Of a DNA stretch of 64,000 bases, positions 12,594-41,253 are shown piece by piece. This stretch comes from an uncultured Maricaulis sp. GTDB lineage: Bacteria > Pseudomonadota > Alphaproteobacteria > Caulobacterales > Maricaulaceae. Position numbers and translations under genes: made by a program. How positions within the stretch are numbered: position 1 is the stretch's first letter; the number at the start of each line of letters is the position of its first letter. A model generated the notes under the pieces. The model saw only the letters and a program-made list of their open reading frames with translations. It did not search any database and had not been told where the DNA came from. The stretch spans positions 62,001-126,000 of the forward strand of contig NZ_CAMYLS010000001.1 of the NCBI RefSeq assembly GCF_947259345.1. Reading direction: 5' to 3'.

Positions 12594-12689
12594 ATGCATT
12601 GACCTGCCCCCCTTGCCTCGTCTTACTATCGGGCAAACAGCAAGCGCCGGGTAAGTGAAGTCCGGCCTGTGACAGGGGAAGAGACCAAT

Positions 12690-15119: not shown

Positions 15120-15154
15120 ACCGACGTACCGACACGTAACCGAAAGGCGGCCCC

Positions 15155-18016
15155 ATGCGCTGGACTTCAACCTGGCACATTCTTCCGGCCGTCCTTGCGG
15201 TCATCCTGGTCGCCTGTCAGCCGGAGGCTGACAGGCCAGAAATCTCCTCCGAGGCGGACGTCGGGACGGGTTGTGCGGGTGAGGCCACAATCTGTCCCGG
15301 TCGTCCTGCTGCTGACGGTTTTGCGCTTGTCGCCGACGGTCTGGCCGCGGCTATCATCACGGATCCCGACGACGCACCCGGCTTGTTGCGGGCGGCCGGT
15401 GATCTCGCCGAAGACCTGGCAGCCGTGTCCGGCCAACCCGTTGCGTCGGGTGTTGAAGTGGCGGCTGGTCGTGCCGTCATTGTCGGGACGCTTGGCGGCA
15501 ACGGCCTCATTGATGCCCTGGTCGCTGAAGGGCGGCTCGATGTGTCCGGTGTTGACGGGGTGTGGGAAGCCTATCTTCACCAGGTCGTCGACAATCCGGC
15601 CCCGGGCATAGAGCGGGCGCTGGTCATCGCCGGCGCTGACATGCGCGGCACGATCTATGGTGTCTATGACGTCTCCCGCGCTGCCGGCGTCTCGCCTTGG
15701 CATTGGTGGGCGGATGTGCCGGTTGACCGCCACGACCAGCTCCAGGTCTCGGCTGGCCATCGGAGGGACGCACCCTCGGTGCGCTATCGCGGGATTTTCC
15801 TGAATGACGAAAACCCGGCGCTCTATGGCTGGGTCAATGAGACCTATGGCGGTTTCAACCATGATTTCTACGAGCAGGTCTTCGAGCTGATCCTGCGCCA
15901 GCGCGCCAATTATCTCTGGCCGGCCATGTGGGGGAAGGCCTTCTCCGACGATGATCCGCTCAACGCCCCGACCGCTGACATGTATGGCGTGGTGATCGGG
16001 ACCTCCCACCATGAGCCGCTGATGCGGGCGCATGTCGAATGGGCCCGCTATGGCGAGGGGCCGTGGGACTTCGCCGCCAACCCCGAAACCTTGCGCGAAT
16101 TCTGGCGCGAGGGTGTCGAGCGCATGGGCGAGCATGAGAGTCTGGTGACGATCGGCATGCGCGGTGATGGCGATGAGGCCATGACCGAGGGTACAGCCAT
16201 CGCGCTTCTGGAAAGCGTGGTTGAGGCCCAGCGTGAGATCATCACCGAGGTAACCGGTCGTCCGGCGTCCGAAACACCCCAGGTCTGGGCGCTCTACAAG
16301 GAAGTTCAGGACTATTTCGACCAGGGCATGGATGTGCCCGACGATGTGACCCTGCTCTTTGCCGACGACAATTGGGGTAATATCCGCCGCCTGCCCGCCC
16401 GCGGCGCCGACCGCGAGGGCGGCTATGGCGTCTATTATCACTTCGACTATGTCGGCGATCCGCGGAACTATAAATGGCTCAACACGACCCAGATCGAACG
16501 GACCTGGGAGCAGATGAACCTGGCCTGGGAGCATGGCGCTCATGAGCTCTGGATCGTCAATGTCGGCGATCTCAAGCCGATGGAATTCCCGATCAGCTTC
16601 TTCCTCGACCAGGCCTGGGATCCCGAGGCCATGACGCTGGAGGCGATGTCCGGTTATACGCAGGACTGGGCCGCCGAACAGTTTGGCGAGGCGGAGGCGG
16701 GCGCGATTGCGGAACTCCTGACCCGCTACACCCAGTACAATGCCCGGCGCAAACCCGAGCTGATTGATGCCGAGACCTTCTCGCTGACCGGTTTTGATGA
16801 GGCGGATCGGGTCGAGGCGGACTGGCAAGCGCTCGCGGCCGAGGCCGATGCCGTCCGGGCCCGCTTGCCAGAGACTTATGACGATGCCTTCGTCCAGCTG
16901 GTCTGGTTCCCGATCCAGGCCAGCGCCAACCTCACTTCGCTCCACATCGAGACGGCGCGCAACCGTCTGTGGGCGGCGCAGGGCCGGGTCACGGCGAATG
17001 AGGCGGCAGACCGGGTCGCTGAATTGTTCGAGCGCGATGCCGAGCTGGAGCGGATTTATCACCAGGATGTGGCGGACGGGAAATGGAATCATTTCATGTC
17101 CCAGACCCATATCTCCTACACCTATTGGCAACAGCCGGAGGAAGATCTTCTGCCGGAAACCGTTCGCGTCGAGCCGCTTGATGGCGCCCATCTCGGGCTG
17201 GCCCTGTCGAGCGGCGGCGAGGCGCTTGTGTTCGAGCGCCATGGCCAGGCAGAGCGGCAGATCGAGCTGTTCGATCGCGGCCACAGTCCGGCTGTGGCGG
17301 AGCTTTCGGTGAGCGCGGACTGGATTATCCTGTCCCGCACTGAGGGCGGTGCCGGCGAGGTGGACGTCACGATCGACTGGACAGCGCTGGCACCGGGCGA
17401 GCATGCCGGTCAGATCATGGTCATCGGGTCTGGTGGCGCCTCCTACACGGTGCCGGTCATTGCCCGCCAGCGGGCGACCGATCCGGCGCCGGGGCACTTC
17501 GTCGAGGCCGATGGCCACGTCACGATCGAGGCTGCCGACCAGGCTGCGTCGGTCAATGCTGACGGTGTTGCCTGGGTGGAGATTCCCGAGATCGGCCGCA
17601 GCCGCTCCGGGATGAGCGTCCTGCCCGCCAACTCACCCTCCCACGCGCCGGGCGAGGGCCCCTATCTCGACTATCCGGTCTATCTCTGGTCCACGGGCGA
17701 GGTCGAGATCGATGTCACCCTGTCGCCGACGCTCGATTATCTCGACCGCGGTGGCATGCGTTATGGAATCCAGCTCGATAACGGCCCGATCGAGGTCGTC
17801 AATGTCCAGGGCGATGGCAGTCACGAGGCCTGGATGCGCAATGTCGCCGATAGTGTCACCGTGTTGACCACGCGCCATAACGTCGAGGCAGAGGGCGCAC
17901 ACACCATCCGGCTCTGGCTCATCGATCCCGGCCTGGTCTTCCAGCGGGTATCGCTGCGCACGCGCGACCTTCCCGACAGTTATCTGGGACCGCCCGCCAG
18001 CGCGCGCAGCGAGTAG
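15155..18016 (+). CDS. GH115 xylan alpha-1,2-glucuronidase, lipoprotein
   Basis: Large enzyme of 953 residues expected to release (4-O-methyl)-D-glucuronic acid from internal and terminal xylose units of glucuronoxylan. The signal ends in a lipobox LVAC with Cys21. GH115 family segments are recognisable: VGTLGGN near residue 110, DMRGTIYGVYDVSRAAGVSPWHWWADVPV near 150-180, YRGIFLNDENP near 210, YLWPAMWGKAFSDDDP near 250, GVVIGTSHHEPLMRAH, DDNWGNIRRLP near 405, and ELWIVNVGDLKPMEFPISFF near 465. A C-terminal beta-sandwich with GMSVLPANSPSHAPGEGPYL is also typical. It is probably co-transcribed with the GH3 gene. Its product feeds the glucuronate genes at the left edge. Assignment to the family is firm; exact bond preference is from family knowledge. 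Confidence 0.93.
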   Translation: MRWTSTWHILPAVLAVILVACQPEADRPEISSEADVGTGCAGEATICPGRPAADGFALVADGLAAAIITDPDDAPGLLRAAGDLAEDLAAVSGQPVASGVEVAAGRAVIVGTLGGNGLIDALVAEGRLDVSGVDGVWEAYLHQVVDNPAPGIERALVIAGADMRGTIYGVYDVSRAAGVSPWHWWADVPVDRHDQLQVSAGHRRDAPSVRYRGIFLNDENPALYGWVNETYGGFNHDFYEQVFELILRQRANYLWPAMWGKAFSDDDPLNAPTADMYGVVIGTSHHEPLMRAHVEWARYGEGPWDFAANPETLREFWREGVERMGEHESLVTIGMRGDGDEAMTEGTAIALLESVVEAQREIITEVTGRPASETPQVWALYKEVQDYFDQGMDVPDDVTLLFADDNWGNIRRLPARGADREGGYGVYYHFDYVGDPRNYKWLNTTQIERTWEQMNLAWEHGAHELWIVNVGDLKPMEFPISFFLDQAWDPEAMTLEAMSGYTQDWAAEQFGEAEAGAIAELLTRYTQYNARRKPELIDAETFSLTGFDEADRVEADWQALAAEADAVRARLPETYDDAFVQLVWFPIQASANLTSLHIETARNRLWAAQGRVTANEAADRVAELFERDAELERIYHQDVADGKWNHFMSQTHISYTYWQQPEEDLLPETVRVEPLDGAHLGLALSSGGEALVFERHGQAERQIELFDRGHSPAVAELSVSADWIILSRTEGGAGEVDVTIDWTALAPGEHAGQIMVIGSGGASYTVPVIARQRATDPAPGHFVEADGHVTIEAADQAASVNADGVAWVEIPEIGRSRSGMSVLPANSPSHAPGEGPYLDYPVYLWSTGEVEIDVTLSPTLDYLDRGGMRYGIQLDNGPIEVVNVQGDGSHEAWMRNVADSVTVLTTRHNVEAEGAHTIRLWLIDPGLVFQRVSLRTRDLPDSYLGPPASARSE

Positions 18017-18713: not shown

Positions 18714-20429
18714 CTAGTCAGGGTGGCTCGGCGTATAGGCGTGCGGGCCCATGGTGACGCCGACGAAACCGCCTGCGGTGCGGGTGGAGAGAATGGTCCC
18801 GTCGGCACCGCGCAGCAGGTTCTGCCAGCCGCCATCAGGCAGGCGATAATCAAAATCGTAGCGCGGCCCGCGGGCCGTGGCCCGGACCTCGATCATGGCG
18901 CCGTCGCCCAGATCGACCGGGGCTGTGGCGATAACGGTGCCGTCTGACGGAGTGTCGCGGCCGGCACGACGCCGTAGCTGGATGGCGAGCCCGTTCTCAG
19001 TCTGTTCGAGACCGATGAAAAACCAGTACTCGTCATTTTGAAGGACGGCGAGCCCGGCCCGCGCGCCAGTCGTGTCGGGGGTAAAGCTGAAGGCCAGCTC
19101 TGCCTGGCCGAACATGTGCTGCTGGCGTCGGCCGAAATAGGACGGGTTGGAAAAGTCACCCAGCCCGACCGGGCGCGGTTCAAGTTCCAGCGCTTCGCCG
19201 TCGAGCTGCCACCAGTTTTCGCGCGGATTGCGCATCATCATCCAGTCCGGCCCCATCTCGCTTGTGTCGAACTCGTCGACGACCGTGAAGGCCCCCGCCA
19301 TCGGGGCGATGTCCGGATCGCCGGCTGGCAGGTCGGGGCGCGCGGTGGCATAGGGAATAGCCTCGCCCGGTGCTGTTATGCGTGGCCAGCCACCCTCCCA
19401 GCTCACCGGCATAAGGAAGGTCTCGCGACCGGTATTGTACTGGTCATCGCCATAGGGACGCACGGCGAGGAAGGTGGCCCACCAGTCACCGTCCGGTGTC
19501 TGCACGAGATCGGCATGGCCGGCCGAGGTGATCGGATTGGCGCGGTCGCGCGGCAGGTCACGCTGAGTGAGGACCGGATTGTTTTCGTACGCGGTGTAGG
19601 GACCCATCGGCGCGTCACCGACCAGCACGACCTGGGAATGATTCTCCGCCGTGCCGCCCTCGGCCGCCATCAGGTAATAGCGTCCGTCAACCTTGTAGAT
19701 GTGCGGGCCTTCGATCCAGATCGGCTGTTCGGAAAAGTCGACGCCGCCATCGATCAGCACAATGCGCTCGCCAAACGTCTCCAGCGTTTCGAGATTGAAT
19801 TCCTGGATCCAGACAGCCCGATGGCCTTCATATTCCGGTTCGCGATCCGGCGGACCGTTATTGAGGATATAGGCGCGGCCGTCATCGTCCACAAAGAGCG
19901 ACGGGTCGATGGCGCCGACGAGATCGGGCAGCCAGACCGGGTCCGACCAGGGTCCGGCCGGGTCGGTGGCCGTGATCAGGAAATTGTCGCCGCAATCGAC
20001 GCAGGTATTGAGGATGTAAAAGAGCCCGTCATGATATTCGATGGCTGGGGCGAACAGGCCGCGCGACAGGCCGAGCGTGCCGAAATCCATCTGGTCGGGC
20101 CGGTCGATCGCATTGCCGATCTGCTCCCAGTGGACGAGGTCGCTGGAGCGGAACACCGGCAGGCCGGGAAAATAGGCAAAGGTCGAGGTGACGAGAAAAT
20201 ATTCTTCACCCGCCCGCGTATTGGACGGGTCCGGATAAAAGCCTCCGAGCACCGGATTGAGGTAGGTTTCTGAATCCTGCGGGACGCCCTCATGGACCGG
20301 GTCGCCACCGGAATAGGTGAAATGCTCGAAACGGGCGGGGGTAATGCCGCCGGTCGGGGTCTCGCGCGTGTCGGCAGAGCAGGCAGCGAGTATGGCCAGG
20401 CTGACGCCCAGCAGGAGATGGCGGGTCAT
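18714..20429 (-). CDS. GH43 beta-xylosidase / arabinofuranosidase, lipoprotein
   Basis: Family GH43 five-bladed propeller enzyme of 571 residues with a C-terminal beta-sandwich domain. The signal ends in the lipobox LAAC with Cys17. The catalytic base is D67 in LGGFYPDPSN; the pKa-modulating Asp is in VGAIDPSLFVDDDGRAY near residue 170; the acid Glu lies in IEGPHIYKVDGRYYLM near 235. The C-terminal part (from about residue 370) resembles the GH43 laminin-G-like domain (FGQAELAFSF, LAVLQNDEYWFFIGL). The ATG overlaps the stop of the preceding halogenase-like gene (TGATG), so the enzyme is translationally coupled to that operon. Activity is most likely on xylo-oligosaccharides or arabinose side chains. 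Confidence 0.92.
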   Translation of the reverse strand: MTRHLLLGVSLAILAACSADTRETPTGGITPARFEHFTYSGGDPVHEGVPQDSETYLNPVLGGFYPDPSNTRAGEEYFLVTSTFAYFPGLPVFRSSDLVHWEQIGNAIDRPDQMDFGTLGLSRGLFAPAIEYHDGLFYILNTCVDCGDNFLITATDPAGPWSDPVWLPDLVGAIDPSLFVDDDGRAYILNNGPPDREPEYEGHRAVWIQEFNLETLETFGERIVLIDGGVDFSEQPIWIEGPHIYKVDGRYYLMAAEGGTAENHSQVVLVGDAPMGPYTAYENNPVLTQRDLPRDRANPITSAGHADLVQTPDGDWWATFLAVRPYGDDQYNTGRETFLMPVSWEGGWPRITAPGEAIPYATARPDLPAGDPDIAPMAGAFTVVDEFDTSEMGPDWMMMRNPRENWWQLDGEALELEPRPVGLGDFSNPSYFGRRQQHMFGQAELAFSFTPDTTGARAGLAVLQNDEYWFFIGLEQTENGLAIQLRRRAGRDTPSDGTVIATAPVDLGDGAMIEVRATARGPRYDFDYRLPDGGWQNLLRGADGTILSTRTAGGFVGVTMGPHAYTPSHPD

Positions 20430-21949
20430 CACATTGGCTCCGTTTCGGCGGCGCAATTGCCGGCAATGAACTGGGCATGGTTCGGCATGTGATCCGACGA
20501 GGCCTGCATGGCCTGGCGGATCTGGGCCAGACGGCGTCGGGTCTCGTCCTCGGACAGACATTCTGCGACCGGATCAAAAGATCGCGGCTTCAGGCCCTGG
20601 CCGATCATCACGGCGAACCAGCTGGTGTCGTTGAACAGCTCGTCATTTTCCCGGAAGACCCGGCCATAGCCCTCGAAAATGCGGTATTTCTCGGCCAGAC
20701 CCGGTGGGACTTGCATGGTCCGGCAATGATCCCAGAACGGCGTGTCATCCCGTGTCGTGGCGTTGTAGTGCAGGATGATGAAGTCGCGCACGCGCTCGAA
20801 TTCGTCCTTGGTCCGGGCATTGAAGCGGTCAATATCGGCCTGCTCGAAGCTTTTGCGCGGGAACATCTGGAGAAGTTTGGCGATGCCGCTCTGGATCAAG
20901 TGGATCGAAGTCGATTCAAGCGGCTCCAGGAAGCCGGACGACAGACCAAGTGCCACGCAATTCTTGACCCAGGCCTTTTTGCGCCGACCCGTTACGAAGC
21001 GAAGCAGTTTTGGGTCGGCCAGCGGTTTGCCATCCAGATTGGCGAGGAGGGTTGCGGCGGCTTCGTCCTCGGAGATGTGGTTGGACGAGAAGACATAGCC
21101 ATTGCCGGTGCGGTGCTGCAGCGGTATGCGCCACTGCCAGCCGGCCTCGCGCGCGGTGGCGCGGGTATAGGGCGTGATGTCGCCGACGCCTTCGCATGGA
21201 ACGGCGAGCGCCCGGTCACAGGGCAGCCAGTCCGTCCAGTCCTCATATCCTGCCTTAAGCGTCTGTTCGATCAGGAGGCCGCGAAACCCCGAGCAGTCGA
21301 TGAAGAGATCGCCCTCGATTCGGTCTCCATTCTCCAGCTCCACGGATTGAATGAAGCCGTCTTCGGCGCGCTGGTGCACTTGTGTGACCTTGCCTTCCAC
21401 GCGCTTGACCCCTCGCTCTTCAGCAAAGCCGCGCAGGAATTTCGAGTAGAGATGGGCGTCAAAATGGAAGGCATAGGCTATCTGGCCCAGCGGTGAGGTC
21501 CCGGCATTGGCGATCGGGCGCATGAATTTCCCGTTCTCGCCGGCGACGGATTGCAGGGAATAATCGGTAATGGGGTGAGGCTCACCGAGCTGGTTCATGC
21601 GTAGCCAGAACGCATGGAAGGAGACGCCTTCCATGTTGACCCCAAACGGGCCGAAGGGGTGGAAATAGCGCTCGCCCTTGCGGCCCCAATCGACGAACTG
21701 AATCCCCAGTTTGAAGCTGCCCTTCGTGTCTCGCATAAAGCGATCCTCGTCGAGACCGAGCATGGTGTTGAAGATCTTGATCTGCGGGATGGTCGCTTCC
21801 CCGACACCGACTATGCCGATGGCGTCACTTTCAACCAGCGTGATGTTGCCATAGTCCGGGCCCAGGACCTTCCCGAGGGCTGCGGCGGTCATCCAGCCGG
21901 CGGTCCCGCCACCCACGATGACGGTCTTGCGGATACGTTGATCACTCAT
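20429..21949 (-). CDS. Tryptophan 7-halogenase-like flavoprotein (Hal1)
   Basis: FADH2-dependent halogenase family, 506 residues. Expected residues are present: nucleotide motif GGGTAGW near residue 13, the lysine equivalent to the active-site Lys of PrnA (K80 in GSFKLGIQF), the WxWxIP motif in GWQWRIPLQH near 270, and FLEPLESTSIHL near 340 carrying the catalytic Glu-Ser pair. Start MSDQ at 21949 has GAGG six bases upstream and lies 8 bases after the stop of Hal2. Members of this family beside TonB-dependent receptors in Caulobacterales and Xanthomonas are widespread. Some tested relatives halogenate free indoles, but the natural substrate is generally unknown. No separate flavin reductase is nearby. 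The final gene of the operon is the GH43 enzyme. Confidence 0.88.
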   Translation of the reverse strand: MSDQRIRKTVIVGGGTAGWMTAAALGKVLGPDYGNITLVESDAIGIVGVGEATIPQIKIFNTMLGLDEDRFMRDTKGSFKLGIQFVDWGRKGERYFHPFGPFGVNMEGVSFHAFWLRMNQLGEPHPITDYSLQSVAGENGKFMRPIANAGTSPLGQIAYAFHFDAHLYSKFLRGFAEERGVKRVEGKVTQVHQRAEDGFIQSVELENGDRIEGDLFIDCSGFRGLLIEQTLKAGYEDWTDWLPCDRALAVPCEGVGDITPYTRATAREAGWQWRIPLQHRTGNGYVFSSNHISEDEAAATLLANLDGKPLADPKLLRFVTGRRKKAWVKNCVALGLSSGFLEPLESTSIHLIQSGIAKLLQMFPRKSFEQADIDRFNARTKDEFERVRDFIILHYNATTRDDTPFWDHCRTMQVPPGLAEKYRIFEGYGRVFRENDELFNDTSWFAVMIGQGLKPRSFDPVAECLSEDETRRRLAQIRQAMQASSDHMPNHAQFIAGNCAAETEPM

Positions 21950-21957
21950 GTCTGTCC

Positions 21958-23484
21958 TCATGCGGGCGCGGCCGGCTCAGCGGCACGGCAATGGCGGTCG
22001 ATGAATTCCTGGTGCTTGGGCATGCTGGCGGCGGCGCCCGCGACGGCGCGGCGCATCTGGTCGAATGCCTCGATGATGCGGTCGTCCGGGGCAGCGTCGA
22101 CCAACGGGTCATAGCCTTCCGGCATGACATTCTGGCCCAGGAGGACAGCGTGCCAGCTCGCTTCCGCGAACAGCTCGTCCTCATATCGGAAGAGACGGCC
22201 CTTATGCCTGAAGAGCTCGAGCTTGTGTTGTAGCGTCTCGGGAATGTCCATGTTGCGGCAATGATCCCAAAGCGGCAGTCCGAAACGTTCATTGGCGTGG
22301 TAATGCAAAACAATGAAGTCGCGGATGTGCCGGTAGAGATACTCGGCCTGCCGATTGTATTCGGCGATGCCTGCGGGGTCGAAACTCTTGTCCGGGAAGA
22401 GCGCCATCAGTCGCGAAATTCCGGCCTGGGTGATGTGGATGGATGTGGATTCCAGCGGTTCTAGAAAGCCTGAGGCCAGACCGATCGCGACGCAATTCTT
22501 CACCCAAGCCTGTTTGCGTCGGCCGGTGGTGAAGCGAATGGGTTTGGGGTCGTTGAGCGGTTCGCCATCAAGATTATTCAGCAAGGTTCGGGTCGCCTCG
22601 TCCTCGGAGAGGTGGTCGGCTGAGTAAACCAGACCTGATCCGATCCTGTGCTGGAGGGGGATCCGCCATTGCCAGCCGGCATCGCGAGCGGTCGAGCGGG
22701 TGAAGGGTGTGAGTTCACCCGCGCTGGCCGATGACACGGCGATGGCCCTGTTGCAGGGCAACCAGTGAGTCCAGTCCTCGAAGCCGGCTTTCAGGGTTTG
22801 CTCAATCAGCAGGCCTCGGAAACCGGAGCAGTCAACAAAGAGGTCACCGCTGATTTGCGCGCCCGATTCCATTTGCACGGACTCGATGAAGCCGTCTTCG
22901 CCTCGTTGGTGGACATCGACGACCTTGCCTTCGACCCGCTTGACGCCGCGCGCCTCGCTATAGCCTCTCAGGTGACGGGCGTAGAGCGAGGCATCGAAAT
23001 GATAGGCCCAGTGCAGGCTGGAGACGGGCGTTTGATGCTCACGCGGAACTGGCCCGAACCGGTTTTGCCGTGCCGCGACATCACATAGATTATAGTCGCC
23101 GAAGGGGGCGGCATGACCGAGTTGCCGACATTTCAGCCAGTACTGGTGGAATTTTACCGCATTCATATCGGCGCCATAGGCTCCGAAAGGGTGCAGGTAG
23201 GTATGACCGGGTCGAGTCCAGTCGACGAATTCGATTGCCGTCTTGATGGTGCCCTGGGTGGCGCGCAGGAAATCCCGCTCGTCGAGACCGAGCAGCTCAT
23301 TGAAGTGGCGGATCGGCGGGATGGTGGCTTCGCCGACGCCGACAATCCCGATCGCCTCGGATTCAATCAGGGTGATCTTCGTGCGGCCATTGCCCACCAA
23401 CCGAGACAAGGCAGCCGCGGTCATCCAGCCGGCTGATCCACCACCAACGATAACAACGTGGTCGAGCGTGTTCGGATTGATCAT
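21958..23484 (-). CDS. Tryptophan 7-halogenase-like flavoprotein (Hal2)
   Basis: Paralogue of 508 residues, intact by motif: GGGSAGW near residue 14, GVGEATIPPI near 50, active-site-type K81 in GTIKTAIEF, HPFGAYGAD, DCSGFRGLLIEQTLKAGFEDW near 220, GWQWRIPLQHRIGSG near 275 (WxWxIP), and FLEPLESTSIHITQAGI near 345. Its ATG overlaps the stop of Hal3 by 4 bases. Similarity to Hal1 runs over the whole length, including the LPCNRAIAV region, so the pair probably arose by tandem duplication. The substrate is unknown. Co-transcription with GH43 and divergence from the TonB receptor tie it to glycan uptake rather than to a natural-product cluster. Confidence 0.87.
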   Translation of the reverse strand: MINPNTLDHVVIVGGGSAGWMTAAALSRLVGNGRTKITLIESEAIGIVGVGEATIPPIRHFNELLGLDERDFLRATQGTIKTAIEFVDWTRPGHTYLHPFGAYGADMNAVKFHQYWLKCRQLGHAAPFGDYNLCDVAARQNRFGPVPREHQTPVSSLHWAYHFDASLYARHLRGYSEARGVKRVEGKVVDVHQRGEDGFIESVQMESGAQISGDLFVDCSGFRGLLIEQTLKAGFEDWTHWLPCNRAIAVSSASAGELTPFTRSTARDAGWQWRIPLQHRIGSGLVYSADHLSEDEATRTLLNNLDGEPLNDPKPIRFTTGRRKQAWVKNCVAIGLASGFLEPLESTSIHITQAGISRLMALFPDKSFDPAGIAEYNRQAEYLYRHIRDFIVLHYHANERFGLPLWDHCRNMDIPETLQHKLELFRHKGRLFRYEDELFAEASWHAVLLGQNVMPEGYDPLVDAAPDDRIIEAFDQMRRAVAGAAASMPKHQEFIDRHCRAAEPAAPA

Positions 23485-24932
23485 GCGGGACGGGCTCCGG
23501 CCTGGAGGCGCTTGAGGGCGCCGCGGTGATCGGGCAGGGATCGGGCGGTCTGATCGGCCATTTGGCGGACCTGGTTGATCCGGGCGGCCAAGGCGGCAGC
23601 ATCGATGGTGTCAGCCAATGGGTCGTGCTGTCGTGGCCGGATGCCGAGCCCGAGCCAGGCTGCGACCCAAGTGGTGTCGCCGAACAGGTCGTGTTCGCGG
23701 TCCGCCACACGTCCGCGCGCCTCGAAAAGCGCGCGAGCATGGCGAAGCTCATCGGATTGCGGGGCAGAGCGTGCCGCCACCCACGCAGGTTCGGGGCGGG
23801 TTTGGCAGGACCCGACGAGGCGCGCAAGATCTCGCGCGGCAGCGCACTCCTGCGCAAACTTCTTATTGTGAGACCCGGCTTCAGCCAGCATCGCATCGTC
23901 GGACGGAAGCAAGCCGGGAAGCCGTTCGAGCGTCCGAGCCAGCAATGCGAATTCGGCGTCTGAAATCGGATCGGGCTGACACGCTGCCGCGCCGATGGCG
24001 AGGCAATTGCCGGTCCAGGGCTTCAGGTGCCGACCGAGTTCCAGACGGGTCCAGGATGTGTCGTCGCAGTCGGTCGTGTCGACGTTTGAGAACTGGCGCG
24101 TGATTGTTCTGTCCGGCAAAGGGATCTGCATCGACCAGCCGGTCGGTGTGGCGGCAATACCGGTGGCTGGCGGCAGGAGTGCCGCTGCGGGCTCGGTTCG
24201 GGTCTGTTCAAGCCGGAAGGGTGTGTCGCCACCCCAGTCCTCTTTCTCCATGCCGAGCGATGTGGCGAGGCGAGCGTCCGGGCCAGTCGCGTCGATATAG
24301 AGGTCTGCCTCATGTCGGACACCGCCATCATCGACCAGCGCGGCGATCCGGCCTTTCTCGATCTTGATCTCGGCGACGCGCCCGGTACGACTTTCAACCC
24401 CGCGCGCGAGGGCGGTATCGCGAAGTCGCCTGACATAAGCCGCGCAATCCAGGTGAAAACCGAAATCCAGCGTGGACAGGAATTGGCGCGGATCACGGCT
24501 GGGTGGCGCGAAGCGACCCAGTTCAATCGCGGCGCCGGCCAGTGAGTGGGCGGCGTAGTCGGCAAGGCCCGATCCGAGAGCCGCCAATTGGTGATGGAAC
24601 TGGATGGCCCCCCAGCGGGCGCCGACCTCTCCGTGTGGCAGGATGAAGCTTTCCGCATCGGCCACAAAGCCTGTGAATGCCCGGCCCAGGCGCGCACTGG
24701 CCCCACAGCTGATCAGGATCTCCAGATCGTCCAGGCCTATGCGGGCATGCAATCGCCGCAGATTCGGCGACGCGGACAGCGCCGGCACGCAGGTCGGGCC
24801 TTCATCCTTGAGAACCGCAATACGTATGTCGGGTCGGGCGGCAAGAGCTGCGCGCAACGCCAAGGCGGTGAGCCAGCCATCCGGGCCACCGCCGACGATC
24901 AGGATGGACGTGAGAGATGTGGTCCGTGCCAT
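23481..24932 (-). CDS. Degenerate tryptophan-halogenase-like flavoprotein (Hal3)
   Basis: A diverged paralogue of 483 residues. The FAD-binding N-terminus remains (VGGGPDGW near residue 13, with Asp for the usual Ala) and so does a DLYIDATGPDARLA segment. All three catalytic signatures are lost: the active-site Lys position reads R81 (ASARLGRAF), WxWxIP reads GWSMQIPL, and the FLEPLESTS segment is replaced by IGAAACQPDPISDAE. The reading frame is open end to end and coupled by overlap to Hal2, so it is not a decaying pseudogene. It may be a flavin-binding partner or a monooxygenase or oxidase without halogenation. ATG 24932 lies 7 bases after the Hal4 stop, with only a weak ribosome site. Confidence 0.8.
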   Translation of the reverse strand: MARTTSLTSILIVGGGPDGWLTALALRAALAARPDIRIAVLKDEGPTCVPALSASPNLRRLHARIGLDDLEILISCGASARLGRAFTGFVADAESFILPHGEVGARWGAIQFHHQLAALGSGLADYAAHSLAGAAIELGRFAPPSRDPRQFLSTLDFGFHLDCAAYVRRLRDTALARGVESRTGRVAEIKIEKGRIAALVDDGGVRHEADLYIDATGPDARLATSLGMEKEDWGGDTPFRLEQTRTEPAAALLPPATGIAATPTGWSMQIPLPDRTITRQFSNVDTTDCDDTSWTRLELGRHLKPWTGNCLAIGAAACQPDPISDAEFALLARTLERLPGLLPSDDAMLAEAGSHNKKFAQECAAARDLARLVGSCQTRPEPAWVAARSAPQSDELRHARALFEARGRVADREHDLFGDTTWVAAWLGLGIRPRQHDPLADTIDAAALAARINQVRQMADQTARSLPDHRGALKRLQAGARPA

Positions 24933-24939
24933 CTTGGTT

Positions 24940-26436
24940 CTATCCCGCTGCCGCGGCGGCAGCCCGCGGCAGCGCATCGGCATGTTGCGGCATCAGGTCT
25001 GAGAGCCGGTCGAGCTCGTGGGCGAATGCGCGCATTTCACCCTTTGGGCGTCCCGGCCGCGGATCGAGACGACGAGGATGAATGTGCTGACCCAGATAGA
25101 CGGCCTGCCAGCTCGGCTTCAGGAAGACGCCCTGTTCATAGTCTTCGATCAGGCCGCGCTCGCGAAAGGCTTCCATCTTCTCGGCCAGGCTGTCCGGGAC
25201 CGACATGGTCTGACAGTATTGCCAGAAGGGTGTGTCGTCCCGTTCTGTGGCTTTGTAGTGAAGGATAAGGAAATCCCGGATTCGGGTGTATTCGCGATCC
25301 ATGATGCGGTTGAACTCCTCCGTCTCCACCGGGTTCCATTCCCCGGTTGGAAAGAGATCCAGCAAATGCCCGATTGCGGACTGGATGAGGTGGATTGACG
25401 TCGATTCCAGCGGCTCGAGGAAACCGGACGACAGGCCGATGGCGACGCAATTGGCGTTCCATTGCCGTTTCCGTTTGCCCGCCACAAAGCGCAGCCGATT
25501 GGGCTCGCCCAGTGGTTCGCCTTCCAATTGCTCGCGCAACAGGGTCTCTGCTGCGTCATCATCCATGAACCGGCTCGCATAGACGTGGCCATTGCCAACG
25601 CGGTGCTGCAAGGGAATGCGCCATGCCCAGCCGGCGGCGAGCGCGGTGGCGCGTGTAAAGGGCGGCAAATCACCCGTCGAGCTCGACGGCATGGCGATGG
25701 CGCGATCGCAGGGCAGCCAATGGGACCAGTCTTCATAGCCGCTGGACAAGGCGCCCTCGGTGATCAGCCCGCGAAAGCCTGAACAGTCGATAAAAAAGTC
25801 GGCGTCGCGGTGTTGGCCGTCCTCGAGCGAGACCGAGCGAACGCGCCCGCTTTCACCGTCGAGCTGAACATTGTTTATCCGCCCTTCGGTACGGACCACG
25901 CCGCGCGCCTCCGCGTACGCCCGAAGGTAGCGAGCATAGAGGCCGGCATCGAACTGGAAGGCATAGGCATAGGTTGAGGCAAGATCGCGCGGGTCTGCGG
26001 CCGGTGCGCGAAAGCGATGCTTGCGGGCCATCCGGATGGCCAGCGAATAGGTGTCGAGCGGGCCGAGCGCGGCTTCGCCGCCGCCAGCCTGCCACTGGTG
26101 ATGAAAATCGACCGGGTCACCCGGAACGCCAAAGGCCCCGAATGGGTGCATATAGCGGTCGCCGATGCGGCCCCAGTCGCGAAACTCGATGGCCAATTTG
26201 TAAGTCGCCTTGGTCCGCGCCATGAAATCGGCCTCGTCAATGCCGAGGCTCGCATTGAAGTAGCGTATATGGGGTATGGTCGACTCGCCGACGCCAACCG
26301 TGCCAATCGCCTCGGATTCAATCAATTCGACTTGAATCTGTTGGTTGGGGAAACGGTTGGAGAGGGCAGCTGCGGTCATCCAGCCAGCCGTCCCCCCCCC
26401 AATAATCAACACGCGATTGACTCTATTGTCTGACAT
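24940..26436 (-). CDS. Tryptophan 7-halogenase-like flavoprotein (Hal4), first gene of the operon
   Basis: Protein of 498 residues with a full halogenase motif set: GGGTAGW near residue 13, GVGESTIPHI near 50, K80 in ATYKLAIEF, W270/W272 in GWAWRIPLQH, and E344-S345 in FLEPLESTSIHL. The spacing of these residues mirrors PrnA (K79, W272/W274, E346/S347). It is the promoter-proximal member of the hal4-hal3-hal2-hal1-GH43 operon, divergent from the TonB receptor gene. A TTGTCTGACAT sequence, one mismatch from the GntR/FCD-type palindrome, overlaps its start codon (26426-26436); this may be chance because it also encodes the N-terminus. Function in the glycan context is unknown. Confidence 0.88.
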   Translation of the reverse strand: MSDNRVNRVLIIGGGTAGWMTAAALSNRFPNQQIQVELIESEAIGTVGVGESTIPHIRYFNASLGIDEADFMARTKATYKLAIEFRDWGRIGDRYMHPFGAFGVPGDPVDFHHQWQAGGGEAALGPLDTYSLAIRMARKHRFRAPAADPRDLASTYAYAFQFDAGLYARYLRAYAEARGVVRTEGRINNVQLDGESGRVRSVSLEDGQHRDADFFIDCSGFRGLITEGALSSGYEDWSHWLPCDRAIAMPSSSTGDLPPFTRATALAAGWAWRIPLQHRVGNGHVYASRFMDDDAAETLLREQLEGEPLGEPNRLRFVAGKRKRQWNANCVAIGLSSGFLEPLESTSIHLIQSAIGHLLDLFPTGEWNPVETEEFNRIMDREYTRIRDFLILHYKATERDDTPFWQYCQTMSVPDSLAEKMEAFRERGLIEDYEQGVFLKPSWQAVYLGQHIHPRRLDPRPGRPKGEMRAFAHELDRLSDLMPQHADALPRAAAAAAG

Positions 26437-26547
26437 TGTAACCCGGCCTCCCCGCCGATCTCCTCTGAAGCTTATCGGAGCAGATCAATCAGCGTCAACG
26501 CTCCAACCGCGTGAAATAGCAAGCAGGAATAGGGCCGTATTCATGAA

Positions 26548-26563
26548 TTGACAACGTGGACAA
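26548..26563. promoter_or_regulatory. TTGACAACGTGGACAA, possible LacI-type operator
   Basis: In the divergent region between hal4 and the TonB receptor gene. It matches 13 of 16 positions of the perfect palindrome TTGACAACGCTGTCAA found between the GH9 and GH3 beta-glucan genes (41107-41122). A short perfect palindrome ACGCTAGCGT follows at 26566-26575. Both have the CG- or TA-centred symmetry common in LacI-family sites. Which regulator binds is unknown. Confidence 0.4.
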
Positions 26564-26688
26564 TTACGCTAGCGTTGCATTCGAGGAACAGGTCGGAACA
26601 AGCTTTCAATCAGTTGGCAGACGGAGGTTGCCTTGATCCGGATCTTGGATTACCGATTTCAATAATCAGACATTTGCAATATGCAAAA

Positions 26689-26703
26689 TTAGTAGCGCTA
26701 ACA
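26689..26703 (-). promoter_or_regulatory. TGTTAGCGCTACTAA LacI-type box upstream of the TonB receptor gene
   Basis: Read on the minus strand, this 15-mer differs at one base from the box in the xylX promoter (4496-4510) and contains the same TAGCGCTA core. It ends 28 bases before the receptor start codon, which is a suitable place for a repressor. A perfect TTTGCA-ATA-TGCAAA inverted repeat lies just upstream (26673-26687). The region 26437-26730 (294 bases) otherwise holds no gene. Confidence 0.6.
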
Positions 26704-26730
26704 AAAGCGCGTCAAAGGGGAGGAAGTCTG

Positions 26731-29700
26731 ATGGAAAAATCACCGACGGTACCCGTGTACCTTGCGGGTCGTGGTCGCTGTCGCGGCTGGAAGACGGGCG
26801 TATCTGCTTTCGCCCTGACTGCGCTGCTTGCCGTGTCACCGACTTATGGCCAGGACGACGATACGCCGGACGATGCAGAGGAAAGTTCGTCGACGGATGT
26901 TATCCAGGTCACCGGATTCCGGTCCAGTCTGCAAACATCGCAAACGATCAAGCGCGACAGTGAAGTCGTGGTTGACTCGATTACAGCTGACGACATTGGC
27001 GCCCTGCCGGATCGCTCCGTCACCGAGGCGCTGCAGCGCGTGCCGGGGGTCTCGATTGACCGCTTCCGCGCGGGTGTCGATCCGGATCACTTCTCGATCG
27101 AAGGGTCGGGCGTTGTTGTGCGTGGTTTGACCTGGGTTCGCTCTGAACTCAACGGACGTGATACCTTCTCGGCCAATAACGGCCGCATCCTCAGCTTCTC
27201 CGACGTTCCGTCCGAACTCATGGGCGGCGTCGACGTGTTCAAGAGTCCGTCCGCGGACATGATCGAGGGCGGAATTTCCGGCACGATCAACCTGCGCACT
27301 CGCCGTCCCTTCGATGGGGCGCCGACCATCTCCGGCTCGATCGAGTCGAGCTACGGAGATTTCGCGGAGGAGTCGGCGCCGACCTATTCCGTGATGGGGT
27401 CAAATCGCTGGGATACCGGCACGAGCGGTGAGTTCGGTCTGCTGATCAACTATGTGAACTCCGAACTGATTTCCCGTTCTGACGGGCAACAGATTTCGAA
27501 CTACGCCGAACGCACTCTCTATGACAACGGCGATGTCGTGGATCCGGGGGCCGGCACGCCGGTCGGCACGGTCTACTTCCCGCGCGGTGCGGCCTTCCGC
27601 TCTCAGATTTTCGAGCGTCAACGCGAAGGTCTCGGTGCGGCGGCCCAGTGGCGTTCGGAAGATCGCACGATGGAGGCCACGCTCCAGTACCTGCGCTCCG
27701 ACTCGCAACAGGCCTGGACCGAGCATGCGATGGAAATCGCGACCGACAATGTCGCGTCGTCCGGCGATTCTCGTGCTGTGGCCGGGACGCAATTGACCTT
27801 CGGCCCGACCGGCCTGTTCACCTCGGGCGCGATCACGTCCGATGACAATGGTTGGCGGGCTGACCAAAACGGTGCCGACGCCCGCTCTCCTATCGGTGGT
27901 CTGCAGTCGAACAATATCCGTCGTGATGTGATGCAGAACTATCTGACCGAGGATATAGGCTTCAATTTCAAGTGGGCGCCGAATGAAAGCTGGTCTTTCA
28001 ACTTCGACTTCCAGCGCGTCGAGTCCGAGGTCGATGTCATCGATATCGGTCTTTGGACCTCGACCTATCAGAACGCGGTCATTCAGATGAATGGTGACGA
28101 CATCCCGTCCGTCACCTTCACCCCGCCCGGTCCTGACGGCACGCCGTGTGCCGGAGACCCGGGTACGGCAAACTGTCCGGGCTATTTCCGTCCGCCGCAT
28201 GACAGTTTTTCGGACCCGTTCAATTCATTCCCCCGCGCCGCGATGGACCATCTCGAGCAAAGCGAAGGGACGCTCGATTCTTTCCGCGCCGACGGTGAGT
28301 ATCACTTCAACAATCCCGATCGCTGGGCAGAATCCATCCGTTTTGGCTATCGGCATGCAAACCGCGACCAGATCACACGCTTCTCGACCTATAACTGGGG
28401 CGTGATCTCCGAGCAGTGGGGCAATGGTGGCCCTGTCTGGCTCGACGGCAATGTCGCTGGCGTTGGCAATCTTGCGGACAACTTCTCGACCTTTGCCTTC
28501 GACAACTTCATGCGTGGTGATGTGCCCGTACCGACCGGCGACCAGCCGCGACTGTTCTGGGGCGAGAACATTATCGACAACTACGCGAACATGGAGAATT
28601 TCGCCTCGACCGTCGGCACCTCATGGCGCCCCACGACGACGTGCGAAAACTGGGAACCGCTTGCCGCGCGTTGCGGCCAGATGGAGCCGGGTACGCCCTT
28701 CCTTCTGCAGGAAGTTAATCCGATCCAGGAGACCTCCGACGCTCTCTATGCGATGTTCCGCTTCGATCAGGATCTGGATAGCGGCACGCAGGTCTCCGGC
28801 AATTTTGGCCTGCGCTGGGTCAGCATGACTCGCGACACGCAGGGCTATCATTCCTTCACGGATGTGAACTTCAACACCGATGCGGAATGTGCGGCAATTC
28901 CGGCCGGTCAGACGCCGCCGAACTTCTGTCTGCTCAGTCAGGCCGAGCGGGACGCTGCCCGTAGTTTTGCGGACGGCTCGATCACGCCGAACGCGACCAG
29001 TCACGAAATGGAATACTATCTTCCGAGCTTCAACGTCGTGGCCCGGATGGAGAATGGTTGGCAGTTCCGCTTCGGCGCGTCCAAGACCATCACCATGCCG
29101 GATGTGGGCCTGACGAGGAACTACTACAACATCACCCTGCAAGGTCCGGAATTTGGTCAGAACAACGAATTCCTCGGCCCGCGCATTAGCTCGACCGTTG
29201 GCAATCCCTATCTTGACCCGATCGAGTCGATGAATTTCGACGCATCGGCCGAGTGGTATTTCGCCGATGTCGGCTCGCTGACCGTCGCGCTCTTCTACAA
29301 GCAGCTCGACAATGTCATCACGAACGGCACCGACCGTCTGTCCTTCACCAATAACGGAGCGACTTTCGACGGGATCGTGACCACGCCGTCGAATTCCCCG
29401 GAACAGGGTACGGTCAAGGGCTTCGAGCTCGCCTACCAGCAGACCTATGACTTCCTGCCGGGCCCGTTGTCGAACCTGGGCATGAACGCAAGCTACACCT
29501 ATGTCGACAGTGAAGGGGTGGTTCAGTCCACGCTCTCCGCGACCGACCCGGATGTGGCGGCCGGCCGGGTGGCGAATATCGACACCAGCCTGCTTCCGCT
29601 TCAGGGCCTGTCCGAACACACATTCAACGTGTCCGGCTTCTATGAATCGGATCGACTGGCGTTGCGCCTTGCCTACGCTTGGCGTTCCGACTTCGTGGTG

Positions 29701-29937
29701 ACCGTTCGTGATGTGATCGTGCCGTTCGCACCGATCGTGCAGGAGAGTGGTGGTCAGCTCGATGGCTCCGCCTTCTTCTCGATCAATGACAATATCCGTG
29801 TCGGGGTGCAGGGTGTGAACCTGCTCAACCAGGTCACACGCACCAGCCAGGTCCTGAATGACGACCTGCTGACCGCGCCGCGCTCCTGGTTCATGAATGA
29901 CCGTCGGGTCACCTTCATCCTGCGGGCAACCTACTAG
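26731..29937 (+). CDS. TonB-dependent outer-membrane receptor, probable xylo-oligosaccharide transporter
   Basis: Outer-membrane receptor of 1068 residues. Start ATG 26731 follows AGGGGAGGAAG; upstream in-frame codons are not needed. The signal peptide ends near PTYGQ (about residue 37), followed by an acidic linker and a TonB-box-like STDVIQVTGFRSSL. The plug domain has DDIGALPDRSVTEALQRVPGVSIDRF and GLTWVRSELNGRD, then a 22-strand barrel ends in VTFILRATY. The length and plug style are those of the carbohydrate-type receptors of Caulobacter, Xanthomonas and Shewanella. Context (GH10 downstream, GH43 and halogenase operon divergent, shared operator with xylX) points to uptake of xylan fragments. 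A strong terminator follows. Confidence 0.93.
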   Translation: MEKSPTVPVYLAGRGRCRGWKTGVSAFALTALLAVSPTYGQDDDTPDDAEESSSTDVIQVTGFRSSLQTSQTIKRDSEVVVDSITADDIGALPDRSVTEALQRVPGVSIDRFRAGVDPDHFSIEGSGVVVRGLTWVRSELNGRDTFSANNGRILSFSDVPSELMGGVDVFKSPSADMIEGGISGTINLRTRRPFDGAPTISGSIESSYGDFAEESAPTYSVMGSNRWDTGTSGEFGLLINYVNSELISRSDGQQISNYAERTLYDNGDVVDPGAGTPVGTVYFPRGAAFRSQIFERQREGLGAAAQWRSEDRTMEATLQYLRSDSQQAWTEHAMEIATDNVASSGDSRAVAGTQLTFGPTGLFTSGAITSDDNGWRADQNGADARSPIGGLQSNNIRRDVMQNYLTEDIGFNFKWAPNESWSFNFDFQRVESEVDVIDIGLWTSTYQNAVIQMNGDDIPSVTFTPPGPDGTPCAGDPGTANCPGYFRPPHDSFSDPFNSFPRAAMDHLEQSEGTLDSFRADGEYHFNNPDRWAESIRFGYRHANRDQITRFSTYNWGVISEQWGNGGPVWLDGNVAGVGNLADNFSTFAFDNFMRGDVPVPTGDQPRLFWGENIIDNYANMENFASTVGTSWRPTTTCENWEPLAARCGQMEPGTPFLLQEVNPIQETSDALYAMFRFDQDLDSGTQVSGNFGLRWVSMTRDTQGYHSFTDVNFNTDAECAAIPAGQTPPNFCLLSQAERDAARSFADGSITPNATSHEMEYYLPSFNVVARMENGWQFRFGASKTITMPDVGLTRNYYNITLQGPEFGQNNEFLGPRISSTVGNPYLDPIESMNFDASAEWYFADVGSLTVALFYKQLDNVITNGTDRLSFTNNGATFDGIVTTPSNSPEQGTVKGFELAYQQTYDFLPGPLSNLGMNASYTYVDSEGVVQSTLSATDPDVAAGRVANIDTSLLPLQGLSEHTFNVSGFYESDRLALRLAYAWRSDFVVTVRDVIVPFAPIVQESGGQLDGSAFFSINDNIRVGVQGVNLLNQVTRTSQVLNDDLLTAPRSWFMNDRRVTFILRATY

Positions 29938-29994: not shown

Positions 29995-30024
29995 CTTGCG
30001 TGAATGACAAACCCGGAGGGGTCC

Positions 30025-31170
30025 ATGGTCAAAGCCATCAATCGACGTGAGGCACTTCTTCTCGCTGCCGGCGGTTTGGCCGCCTGTTCCGCTCCGAACG
30101 TCCTGGCAGACGAGTCGCGGTCCCTTCATAGACTGGCCCAGGCCAAGGGCATGCGCTTCGGGACTGCGGTCGGCATGGGGCAGGCGGGGACCTTGACGGG
30201 TGCATTCGGCGATCCGGACTATCGCGCTCTTATCGAGCGTGAATGCGGCATCTTGGTCCATGAGAATGCCCTTAAATGGTATGTACTTCGCCCTGACGCC
30301 GACACCTATTTCTATGACCCGGCCGACCGGCTGGTGGATTTTGCCAGCGAGCAAAACATGGCGGTGCGCGGCCATACCCTGCTCTGGAACCGGGAAGAAT
30401 ACTCGCCAGCCTGGGTCAATAATTACAACTTCGGGAGCCGTCCGGGGGCGGAGGCGGAACGCCTCGTGGTCGACCATGTTCGCGCGATTGTTGCGCGCTA
30501 TCGTGGCCGGATCACCTCCTGGGATGTGATCAATGAAACCATTGATCCGTCGACCGGACGCCTGCGCGAAACCTCGCTGACACGCCACCTCGGAGAAAAC
30601 ATCATAGACATCGCCTACCACGCGACCCGTGAGGCCGATCCGGACGGCGAGATTGTCTATAATGATTATATGAGCTGGGAAGCCGGCCATGAAACCCATC
30701 AGGAAGGCGTACTGCGTCTTCTCGAAGGCATGGTTGAGCGCGGCGTCCCGATCGACGCGCTTGGCGTGCAGAGCCATATCGGTTCGGGCAATTACGATAC
30801 GTCCGTCGGTTTCGACACAGCCCGCGACGACCATTGGCGGGGCTTTCTGGATCAGGTTACCGGCCTCGGCCTAGACCTTGCCATCACCGAGTTCGACGTC
30901 CACGACAAGAATCTGCCCTATGACATCGAGAGCCGGGATCAGGCAGTAGCCGAACTGGCGCGCCGCTATCTCGATCTGATGTTCAGCTACCCCCAGACAC
31001 GGGATGTCCTCGTCTGGGGGCTCTCGGATCGCTATTCCTGGCTTCAGAATGTCTGGCCGCGGAGCGATGGTGCGGCCAAGCGGCCGACGCCTTATGATGC
31101 CGATTTCCGGGCGAAACCGTTGCGCGCTGCAATTGCGGCAGCGTTCGAGGCTGCGGCGCCTCGCGGTTGA
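30025..31170 (+). CDS. GH10 endo-1,4-beta-xylanase, exported lipoprotein
   Basis: Family GH10 TIM-barrel xylanase of 381 residues that cuts the xylan backbone. ATG 30025 follows GGAGG at 6 bases; an earlier ATG at 30004 lacks a ribosome site. The N-terminus NRREALLLAAGGLAAC has a twin-arginine-like pair and a lipobox with Cys21, so it may be exported folded and anchored to a membrane. Catalytic acid/base is E171 in SWDVINETID and nucleophile E289 in LAITEFDVHD. The segments HENALKWYVLRP, RGHTLLWNREEYSPAW and GVQSHIGSG line the substrate cleft. The terminator before it suggests its own promoter or read-through. It would supply oligosaccharides to the receptor and exo-enzymes. Confidence 0.95.
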   Translation: MVKAINRREALLLAAGGLAACSAPNVLADESRSLHRLAQAKGMRFGTAVGMGQAGTLTGAFGDPDYRALIERECGILVHENALKWYVLRPDADTYFYDPADRLVDFASEQNMAVRGHTLLWNREEYSPAWVNNYNFGSRPGAEAERLVVDHVRAIVARYRGRITSWDVINETIDPSTGRLRETSLTRHLGENIIDIAYHATREADPDGEIVYNDYMSWEAGHETHQEGVLRLLEGMVERGVPIDALGVQSHIGSGNYDTSVGFDTARDDHWRGFLDQVTGLGLDLAITEFDVHDKNLPYDIESRDQAVAELARRYLDLMFSYPQTRDVLVWGLSDRYSWLQNVWPRSDGAAKRPTPYDADFRAKPLRAAIAAAFEAAAPRG

Positions 31171-31306
31171 TACGGGGTAATTTCCGGCGCGTTCGGAGGC
31201 AAAACCGAACCAGCAGGTGCAATCCGCGCGCTCTTTGACGGCTGACGCCTATTTCAATCCTTGCCTTTGCACCGGCGCAAGCCATCTATGCGAGCAGGAG
31301 ATTGCC

Positions 31307-32434
31307 ATGCGCCGCGCCAGTTTTTTGATCCTGATTCTTGTTGCCTTCGTGGCAATGACCGCCATCGTCGCCTTTCGGACCCTGATGCCGTCAGGCGAAG
31401 CCGAGATGGGGCGCGGGTCTCGCGTCCTGCCGGTGGCCGTCGCGACCGTGCCCAGTGTCGAGTTTGCCGATGTGGTGGAAGCGCTCGGAACCGCGCGTGC
31501 CAATGAGACGGTGACCATAACGGCCCGCGTCACCGATACGATCTCGCGTATCAATTTCGAATCCGGCCAGCGGGTCGATGCCGGAACGATCCTGGTCGAG
31601 CTCACCGATACAGAAGAGGCGGCCGGGCTCACCGAAGCGCGGACGACGCTGCGTGAAGCACGGCGTGATCTTGATCGGACGAATGATCTGATTGCCCGCG
31701 CGGTGGTGCCCCAATCGCGCCTGGACGAGGCAACGGCAGCCGTCGAGCGCGCGGCCGCCCGCGTTGCCTCCATCGAGGCCCAGCTGGCTGACCGTATTGT
31801 GCGGGCGCCTTTCGCCGGGATTGTGGGGCTCCGTGAAGTCAGCCTCGGCGGTCTGGTCCGGCCCGGTGACACGATTGCCCGCCTCGATGATACCAGCCGG
31901 ATCAAGCTCGATTTCACCGTGCCCGAGCGCTTTCTGGCCGTGGTGGCCCCCGGCATGGAGATTGCTGCGCAAACCTCAGCCTACCCGGGTGAGGTCTTCT
32001 CCGGCGAAATCGCCCAGATCGACAGCCGTATTGATCCGGTAACCCGTAGTGTGATCATTCGCGCTGAAATCGAGAATCTTGATGGGCGACTCCTGCCCGG
32101 CCAGCTCATGACCGTGGAGGTCCGCCGCGATATTCGCGATCGTCCCGCTGTGCCCGGTGCGGCCCTGACCCGTTATCTGGATCAGACCTATGTCTATGTC
32201 GTCGAAAGCAGTGACGGCGAGACGGTGGTTCGCCAACGGACGATCACCCTCGGCCGCCGCTCCGGCACCATGGTCGAGGTGCTGTCAGGGCTTGAGACGG
32301 GCGAGCAGATTATCGCGGAGGGCGTGCATCGCGTCCGTGATGGCGCTGCCGTCACGATCACGCGAGAGATGCAGCTGGGTGCCAATGGCGCAATGACCGG
32401 CATCGCTGTTTCAGGGAGCAGCGCAGCACAATGA
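31307..32434 (+). CDS. RND efflux periplasmic adaptor (membrane fusion protein)
   Basis: Periplasmic adaptor of 375 residues. ATG 31307 has AGGAG 7 bases upstream. One N-terminal membrane anchor (residues 5-25) is followed by the lipoyl half-motif region, a short coiled-coil hairpin (TLREARRDLDRTNDLIARAVVPQSRLDEATAAVERA, described in part: residues ~105-150), the second lipoyl half IVRAPFAGIVGLREVSLGG, and a barrel with FTVPERFLAVV. It overlaps the pump gene by ATGA. Adaptor and pump form the inner part of a tripartite export system; no outer-membrane channel gene is adjacent, so a TolC-like protein from elsewhere is expected. The short hairpin fits an HAE1-type pump. The substrate is unknown; a link to the xylan genes is positional only. 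Confidence 0.92.
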   Translation: MRRASFLILILVAFVAMTAIVAFRTLMPSGEAEMGRGSRVLPVAVATVPSVEFADVVEALGTARANETVTITARVTDTISRINFESGQRVDAGTILVELTDTEEAAGLTEARTTLREARRDLDRTNDLIARAVVPQSRLDEATAAVERAAARVASIEAQLADRIVRAPFAGIVGLREVSLGGLVRPGDTIARLDDTSRIKLDFTVPERFLAVVAPGMEIAAQTSAYPGEVFSGEIAQIDSRIDPVTRSVIIRAEIENLDGRLLPGQLMTVEVRRDIRDRPAVPGAALTRYLDQTYVYVVESSDGETVVRQRTITLGRRSGTMVEVLSGLETGEQIIAEGVHRVRDGAAVTITREMQLGANGAMTGIAVSGSSAAQ

Positions 32435-39003: not shown

Positions 39004-39059
39004 GTGAATGTCCTTGGTCCAAGCAGTGGGGATTGAGCAGGTGAGGGTGTCAGCCGGCG

Positions 39060-41122: not shown

Positions 41123-41146
41123 CGGCGCGTCACGGGGAGGCCAATC

Positions 41147-41245: not shown

Positions 41246-41253
41246 ATGACTGG

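Follow-up and report, generated by a model that had tools for sequence, protein, structure and literature searches.

Why would a bacterium keep four consecutive halogenase-like genes head-to-head with the gene of a TonB-dependent receptor (TBDT) in a xylan-type locus? The question is raised by a stretch of 64,000 nucleotides from an uncultured Maricaulis sp. (assembly GCF_947259345.1, contig NZ_CAMYLS010000001.1, positions 62,001 to 126,000), the whole of which we call the window. The four genes belong to the tryptophan halogenase family PF04820. They occupy 20429-26436 of the minus strand and, in the order of transcription, are named H1, H2, H3 and H4. They are the sole PF04820 matches in the genome by profile search (E <= 0.001). 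Our data suggest a heteromeric system akin to flavin halogenases that is dedicated to the receptor and contains a pseudoenzyme subunit, a reading to which we give about an even chance of being right.

A first-pass annotation, made from the letters alone, had described four adjacent genes on one strand with gaps or overlaps of at most 8 bases, a TGATG junction to a glycoside hydrolase family 43 (GH43) gene, and a divergent TonB receptor followed by a GH10 xylanase. We found this layout as described. The stop codon of H1 is followed after a 7-base gap by the likely H2 ATG at 24932, H2 and H3 overlap by 4 bases as do H3 and H4, and the TGATG that joins H4 to GH43 lies at 20431-20427. Two starts had to be moved. 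GH43 begins not at 20561 but at the ATG within TGATG, and the TBDT probably begins at an ATG (26731) rather than at the TTG proposed before (26548), because the start codon and ribosome-binding site of the former are kept in two relatives. The absence of export signals also stood, as judged by eye with no predictor run: the Rossmann motif of all four proteins lies within about 30 residues of the N-terminus of the longest open reading frame (ORF), which gives them a cytoplasmic look. What did not survive intact was the count of four halogenases, which holds for H1, H3 and H4 but overlooked that H2 is a conserved degenerate member.

The intact members were compared in an alignment of 37 complete four-gene sets. 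In each of H1, H3 and H4 the Lys, the Glu, the Ser and both Trp residues of WxWxIP are present in 37 of 37 proteins, and the glycines of the flavin adenine dinucleotide (FAD) motif GxGxxG in 36 to 37, as expected of flavin-dependent halogenases. The Thr after the Ser is present in every H1 and H3 and in 32 of the 37 H4 proteins. In one genus the halide motif of the H4-type genes reads ESQ instead of EST (L145-L149, L151). In PrnA numbering the Lys and Glu are K79 and E346; E346D stands in the title of PDB entry 2jkc. Both residues of flavin-dependent halogenases are described in PMC8269204, which, like PMC1790865 below, is cited for individual passages. With H1 and H4 as queries, the best PDB chains were 9luq, BrvH (6frl) and Xcc4156 (6y1w); H4 scored 541, 522 and 515 bits against these, and H1 scored 457 bits against BrvH. 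By their motifs, all three intact members look like working FAD enzymes of BrvH type. A dedicated flavin reductase near the four genes was considered and rejected, the one PF01613 match of the genome sitting on another contig.

H2 has a different character. In the window protein an Arg occupies the site of the catalytic Lys, S-D-A replaces Glu-Ser-Thr and GVGE is lost, and its PF04820 score is about a third of those of its partners (Table). Across the 37 H2 proteins the Lys was found in three, the Glu in two, the Ser in one and the Thr in none, so the catalytic motif of the halogenases is missing. The predicted fold of window H2 is nevertheless that of a halogenase (AlphaFold2, predicted local distance difference test [pLDDT] 89.6), with BrvH and Xcc4156 as best Foldseek matches at a template modelling (TM) score of about 0.87. 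A second H2, the 410-residue protein of L036 with 25% identity to window H2, gave a looser predicted halogenase fold (pLDDT 90.1, TM 0.81 by query length and 0.68 by target length, root-mean-square deviation about 5). In four pairs of sets the ratio of nonsynonymous to synonymous substitution (dN/dS) was 0.11-0.31 for H2 versus 0.035-0.11 for its partners, which indicates faster evolution under purifying selection; the cleanest pair, L124/L126, gave 0.19 versus 0.076-0.089. A sequencing error or a decaying pseudogene is ruled out by the intact ORFs in relatives, by dN/dS and by the predicted fold. By these measures H2 is kept under selection despite its lost active site.

To what extent the four genes belong together was addressed in related genomes. 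A first sample of 60 regions around halogenase-family genes gave, with the window, 61 loci and 137 family members; the regions are part of the halogenase-family places among the matches listed, and a three-gene array of genome G034 lies outside the sample. In all 17 four-gene same-strand arrays of these loci the degenerate gene stood second. With 31 further regions from wider searches, complete sets were found in 37 loci, 34 of them contiguous and three split into H1-H2 and H4-H3. Twenty of the extra regions had been selected by a high H2-profile score and 11 came from a class-wide H2-profile search, so the presence of H2 in them is a matter of selection, whereas its position and context are not. 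Of these 31, 20 entered the 37 sets; L122, L123, L125, L127, L131, L132, L140, L143, L144, L151 and L153 were excluded because the set was incomplete or absent, and L084 of the first batch because of its short H2. The carriers include Maricaulis maris, and one complete set lies on a plasmid of Niveispirillum cyanobacteriorum (NZ_CP025614.1). Its conservation across genera shows the layout to be no chance juxtaposition. Outside Alphaproteobacteria, no match from another class rose above the range of the intact members among 398 phylum-wide genomes with only three candidates scored each (best 418 bits, versus 419 for window H3), so the set may yet occur there.

Each position also has its own lineage. 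In the tree of the first sample H1 formed one group (support 97) and H4 another (96), while H3 needed two changes; the H2-type rows fell on one side of a branch with support 83, and in a second tree all 25 did so with support 89. These halogenase trees, like the receptor tree below, were quick ones and carry long-branch warnings. In the split sets (L128-L130, three genomes of another family) each gene still grouped with its namesakes. All 26 H1-clade genes in the trees have an H2-type neighbour; for H3-like and H4-like genes such a neighbour can be missing. In genome G029, H1-H2 (L067) lie apart from H3 and H4 (L066), and the tree assigns the two parts to different set types. A recent local amplification of H1-H4 is ruled out by the tree. 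This suggests that the four genes are one ancient cassette.

The cassette is tied to its receptor. Patristic distances of the halogenase-like proteins correlated with those of the TBDT (Spearman 0.85 for H1, 0.84 for H3, 0.90 for H4 and 0.59 for H2), and none of 500 permutations reached such values. Three genomes (G002, G005 and G017) hold two sets of different type, so the co-divergence is not species history alone. Among 61 genomes, 26 of 27 window-type TBDT genes (E <= 1e-60, counted after merging of pieces) have a halogenase-family gene beside them or, in G048, about 4 kb off. A fully supported branch of the receptor tree separates the 37 full-set TBDTs, together with 13 from partial sets, short arrays or single halogenases, from 15 receptors that accompany halogenase pairs. 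Convergent pairs beside another receptor group occur in L032, L034, L038, L045, L049, L052, L055, L059, L063 and L069; in the halogenase tree one member of a pair groups with H3 and its partner with H4, both weakly, and the L032 pair lies near an alpha-amylase gene.

The glycan genes around the set vary while the receptor stays. By best BLAST matches to window genes, unless Pfam identified them, GH10, GH43 and GH115 surround it in varying combination in the window, L050, L054, L089 and L150, and GH9 with GH3-ExoP and gluconate genes in L036, L037 and L048. A GH16 gene adjoins it in L046, and xylose isomerase-like and carbohydrate kinase genes are found in L065. The set thus occurs in xylan-type, beta-glucan-type and GH16 loci and goes with the class of receptor, not with xylan that bears ferulate; a xylan-specific role as common denominator is ruled out by the GH9/GH3-ExoP and GH16 contexts. 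The proposal that the genes serve plant polymers is therefore kept as a tie to glycan uptake, without its focus on lignin-linked aromatics on xylan. Independent movement of the block from glycan genes had been named as grounds for refutation; the glycan surroundings of the block do change from locus to locus, but its receptor goes along with it.

A common regulator would fit this picture. The palindrome TAGCGCTA lies in the divergent H1-TBDT promoter and again before the xylose-type operon. The window has two copies of the exact form where shuffles gave 0.20 on average, a count of two being reached in one shuffle of 100, and this makes co-regulation with xylose use, on which the first-pass annotation had staked its proposal, probable. 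A loose 14-base form was not significant (three window matches, reached in 7 of 100 shuffles), and a search of the H1-TBDT region for even palindromes of 14-20 bases gave one weak site. The exact palindrome is also present in L050 and L054. Of the 34 head-to-head sets, 17 carry it in the divergent region, at 1.12 per kb versus 0.016 elsewhere in those loci (about 70-fold). One of these sets, L150, was counted as head-to-head because its place fits, an overlong H1 ORF having led to an automatic tail-side label for its receptor. For roughly half of the sets the data thus favour a shared LacI-type regulator. TAGCGCTA probably resembles the Caulobacter xylose-regulon motif. A xylose-regulon palindrome upstream of receptor genes is reported in PMC1790865, in a passage that has no motif letters.

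Table. Features of the window, with positions counted from its first nucleotide
Feature	Position	Strand	Assignment
Mannonate dehydratase	506-1762		Above the ManD cut-off
LacI gene	3352-4443		Ahead of the second palindrome copy and the xylose-type operon
TAGCGCTA palindrome, second copy	4499-4506		Before the xylose-type operon, after the LacI gene
GH3 and GH115 genes	12669-18016	+	Xylan-type locus (Pfam)
GH43 gene	18714-20429	-	Beta-xylosidase type, PF04616 and PF17851; start ATG within TGATG
H4	20429-21961	-	PF04820, 674 bits; intact flavin-dependent halogenase-like; K84, E349 by alignment
H3	21958-23484	-	PF04820, 663 bits; intact flavin-dependent halogenase-like; K81, E345 by alignment
H2	23481-24932	-	PF04820, 221 bits (618-674 in H1, H3, H4); catalytically degenerate halogenase-like, putative pseudoenzyme; longest ORF 23481-24983
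H1	24940-26436	-	PF04820, 618 bits; intact flavin-dependent halogenase-like; K80, E344 by alignment; constant neighbour of H2
TAGCGCTA palindrome	26693-26700		H1-TBDT divergent promoter; LacI-type operator candidate
TBDT	26731-29937	+	TIGR01782, 694 bits; longest ORF from 26548
GH10 gene	30004-31170	+	Xylanase family, PF00331, 264 bits; downstream of TBDT
HlyD-family and AcrB-family genes	31217-35553		Efflux; directly 3' of GH10
Enoyl-CoA hydratase gene	35563-36348		Generic; below every cut-off among 25 of 72 NCBIfam matches listed
Second glycan block	36430-48454		GH3-ExoP, GH9, GH3, SGL, GntP, MFS, LacI

The fixed order, the fixed identities, the constant H1-H2 linkage and the conserved degenerate member make a heteromeric system with a pseudoenzyme the simplest reading. 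The H1-H4 products would form a cytoplasmic system dedicated to the TonB receptor, expressed under a LacI-type sugar repressor together with a class of receptors for beta-linked glycans, and inherited together with the receptor. H2 would keep the halogenase fold without catalysing anything itself; it would most likely pair with H1, in a heterodimer or as a scaffold, and might help to recognise the substrate or to control the reaction. As chemistry, halogenation with flavin or an oxidation related to it is probable. Sequence shows the four-part make-up, the place of H2 and its loss of catalytic residues, the purifying selection, the linkage of H1 to H2, the co-divergence with the TBDT and the common palindrome; the fold of H2 is predicted. 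From these we infer complex formation, activity of H1, H3 and H4, regulation, and a common target tied to the receptor or the uptake step and not to one glycan. A set of four fixed parts, one of them conserved though inactive, yields a concrete hypothesis, that of a heteromeric enzyme with a pseudoenzyme subunit. It also offers a probable H1-H2 partnership and a receptor class for testing, natural split and reduced forms included.

Several observations weigh against this reading. H2 could be an independent protein and no subunit. Its three Rossmann glycines are kept in 36, 32 and 23 of the 37 proteins and the Glu of GVGE in one; many H2s may bind FAD. The distances of H2 correlate with those of H3 (0.74) about as well as with those of H1 (0.75). 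Synonymous sites are near saturation in three of the four dN/dS pairs, among them L036/L037, where the H2 value of 0.110 is barely above the 0.100 of H1. Because the support for the H2 grouping is below 95 and its branches are long, the H2s may have degenerated in parallel. Reduced forms suggest that the full set is not indispensable: three members are found in L122, L140, L144 and L091, the degenerate H1 neighbour in L084 is an ORF of only 266 residues, H4 lies in two ORFs in L151, and the window-like xylan locus of G015 retains a single H1/H4 chimera. The window-type receptor of G058 has no halogenase-family match in its genome, and in the receptor tree full-set TBDTs are mixed with those that go with a partial set or with fewer halogenases (nine changes). 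Half of the head-to-head sets are without TAGCGCTA, which was moreover chosen post hoc, having been noticed in an alignment and counted afterwards.

An ordinary paralogue array, in which each halogenase works by itself on its own small imported aromatic and H2 is either decaying or was repurposed independently, would fit the faster evolution of H2 and the abundance of the family, at least one PF04820 gene being present in 39 of 61 genomes (E <= 1e-20, among the matches listed). It would also fit the G015 gene (L047:1735-3399), a probable tandem-deletion chimera whose N-terminal part resembles H1 (66-72% to the window protein in three of the four 50-residue blocks spanning residues 51-250) and whose C-terminal part resembles H4 (88-92% to window H4, residues 301-550). 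Positional identity is held across genera and after rearrangement, however, and the constant second place of H2, its purifying selection and its confident predicted fold are unexpected for decay; we consider an array of this kind unlikely. Oxidation or halogenation of xylan-linked hydroxycinnamates, as first proposed, would suit the window, where the set lies in a xylan-type locus with GH10, GH43, GH115 and GH3 and shares its palindrome with the xylose-type operon. The enoyl-CoA hydratase family includes feruloyl-CoA hydratases too, and a generic member lies nearby (Table). Yet the same set is found in GH9/GH3-ExoP loci and beside GH16, and a Pfam scan of 40 window ORFs gave no feruloyl esterase family, which leaves this role improbable.

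Just as improbable is that the set makes a halogenated small molecule, such as a brominated indole, released against competitors during growth on polysaccharide. BrvH and Xcc4156 cluster with indole halogenases (PMC8269204), and efflux genes follow GH10, but the 40 ORFs held no evident family of natural-product biosynthesis by Pfam, with no cluster finder run, and co-divergence with the receptor would not be predicted. Since the set keeps its receptor through changing glycan contexts, we find a receptor-linked target more appealing than an aromatic borne on xylan. In the most specific form of this idea, H1-H4 would be a heteromeric protein-modifying flavoenzyme that acts in the cytoplasm, where it would halogenate or oxidise aromatic residues of the receptor while this is nascent; H2, which evolves fast, would be the adaptor. 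This would account for a set that tracks the receptor class through different glycans; MibH offers a case of a halogenase acting on a Trp-bearing peptide, a lanthipeptide (PMC8269204). We regard this form as a long shot. Conserved receptor tryptophans (436, 617, 624 and 702 in P0006) are candidates only, because shared descent of the receptors could explain them, and their conservation is unusable as evidence of modification, Phe and Tyr positions being equally distinctive.

The cassette can be set beside related systems. BrvH, Xcc4156 and the 'group C' flavin-dependent halogenases (PMC8269204) are nearest to H1 and H4, H2 shares their predicted fold, and the HPFG-type motif given for BrvH is present in H1 and H4 as well. 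Members of that group are handled there as single active enzymes, whereas here four orthologous members are fixed and one is conserved in degenerate form. The CUT loci, carbohydrate utilization loci with TonB-dependent receptors (PMC1790865), have in common with the window a TBDT, glycoside hydrolases, transporters and a regulator, and the xylan-type content (TBDT, GH10, GH43, GH115, GH3, Sugar_tr and LacI) is present in the window. Their definition has no four-part flavoprotein set, and the word halogenase is absent from the main text. Among the titles, abstracts and passages of the matches listed, we found no description of the four-gene cassette in the open literature; one annotated record names every member, the degenerate one too, a tryptophan halogenase. 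Halogenase-family genes beside TonB receptors are themselves frequent in these genomes. In L033 (6059-8042) and L060 (8572-10309), SapC and Cupin_8 genes lie between a TonB receptor and a halogenase gene. These blocks likewise link enzymes to a TBDT, but the halogenase follows SapC and Cupin_8, H2 is missing and the receptor group is different.

The window receptor probably imports plant-fibre sugars. The xylose-type operon with its LacI regulator, GH115 and GH3 lie on the other side of the H1-H4 block from TBDT and GH10, the mannonate dehydratase fits use of glucuronate freed by GH115, and the GH43 N-terminus is lipobox-like (LAAC, judged by eye). An HlyD-family gene adjoins GH10 in L054 too. 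The second glycan block has no adjoining halogenase-family gene in the window; its relatives flank the four-gene set in L036, L037 and L048.

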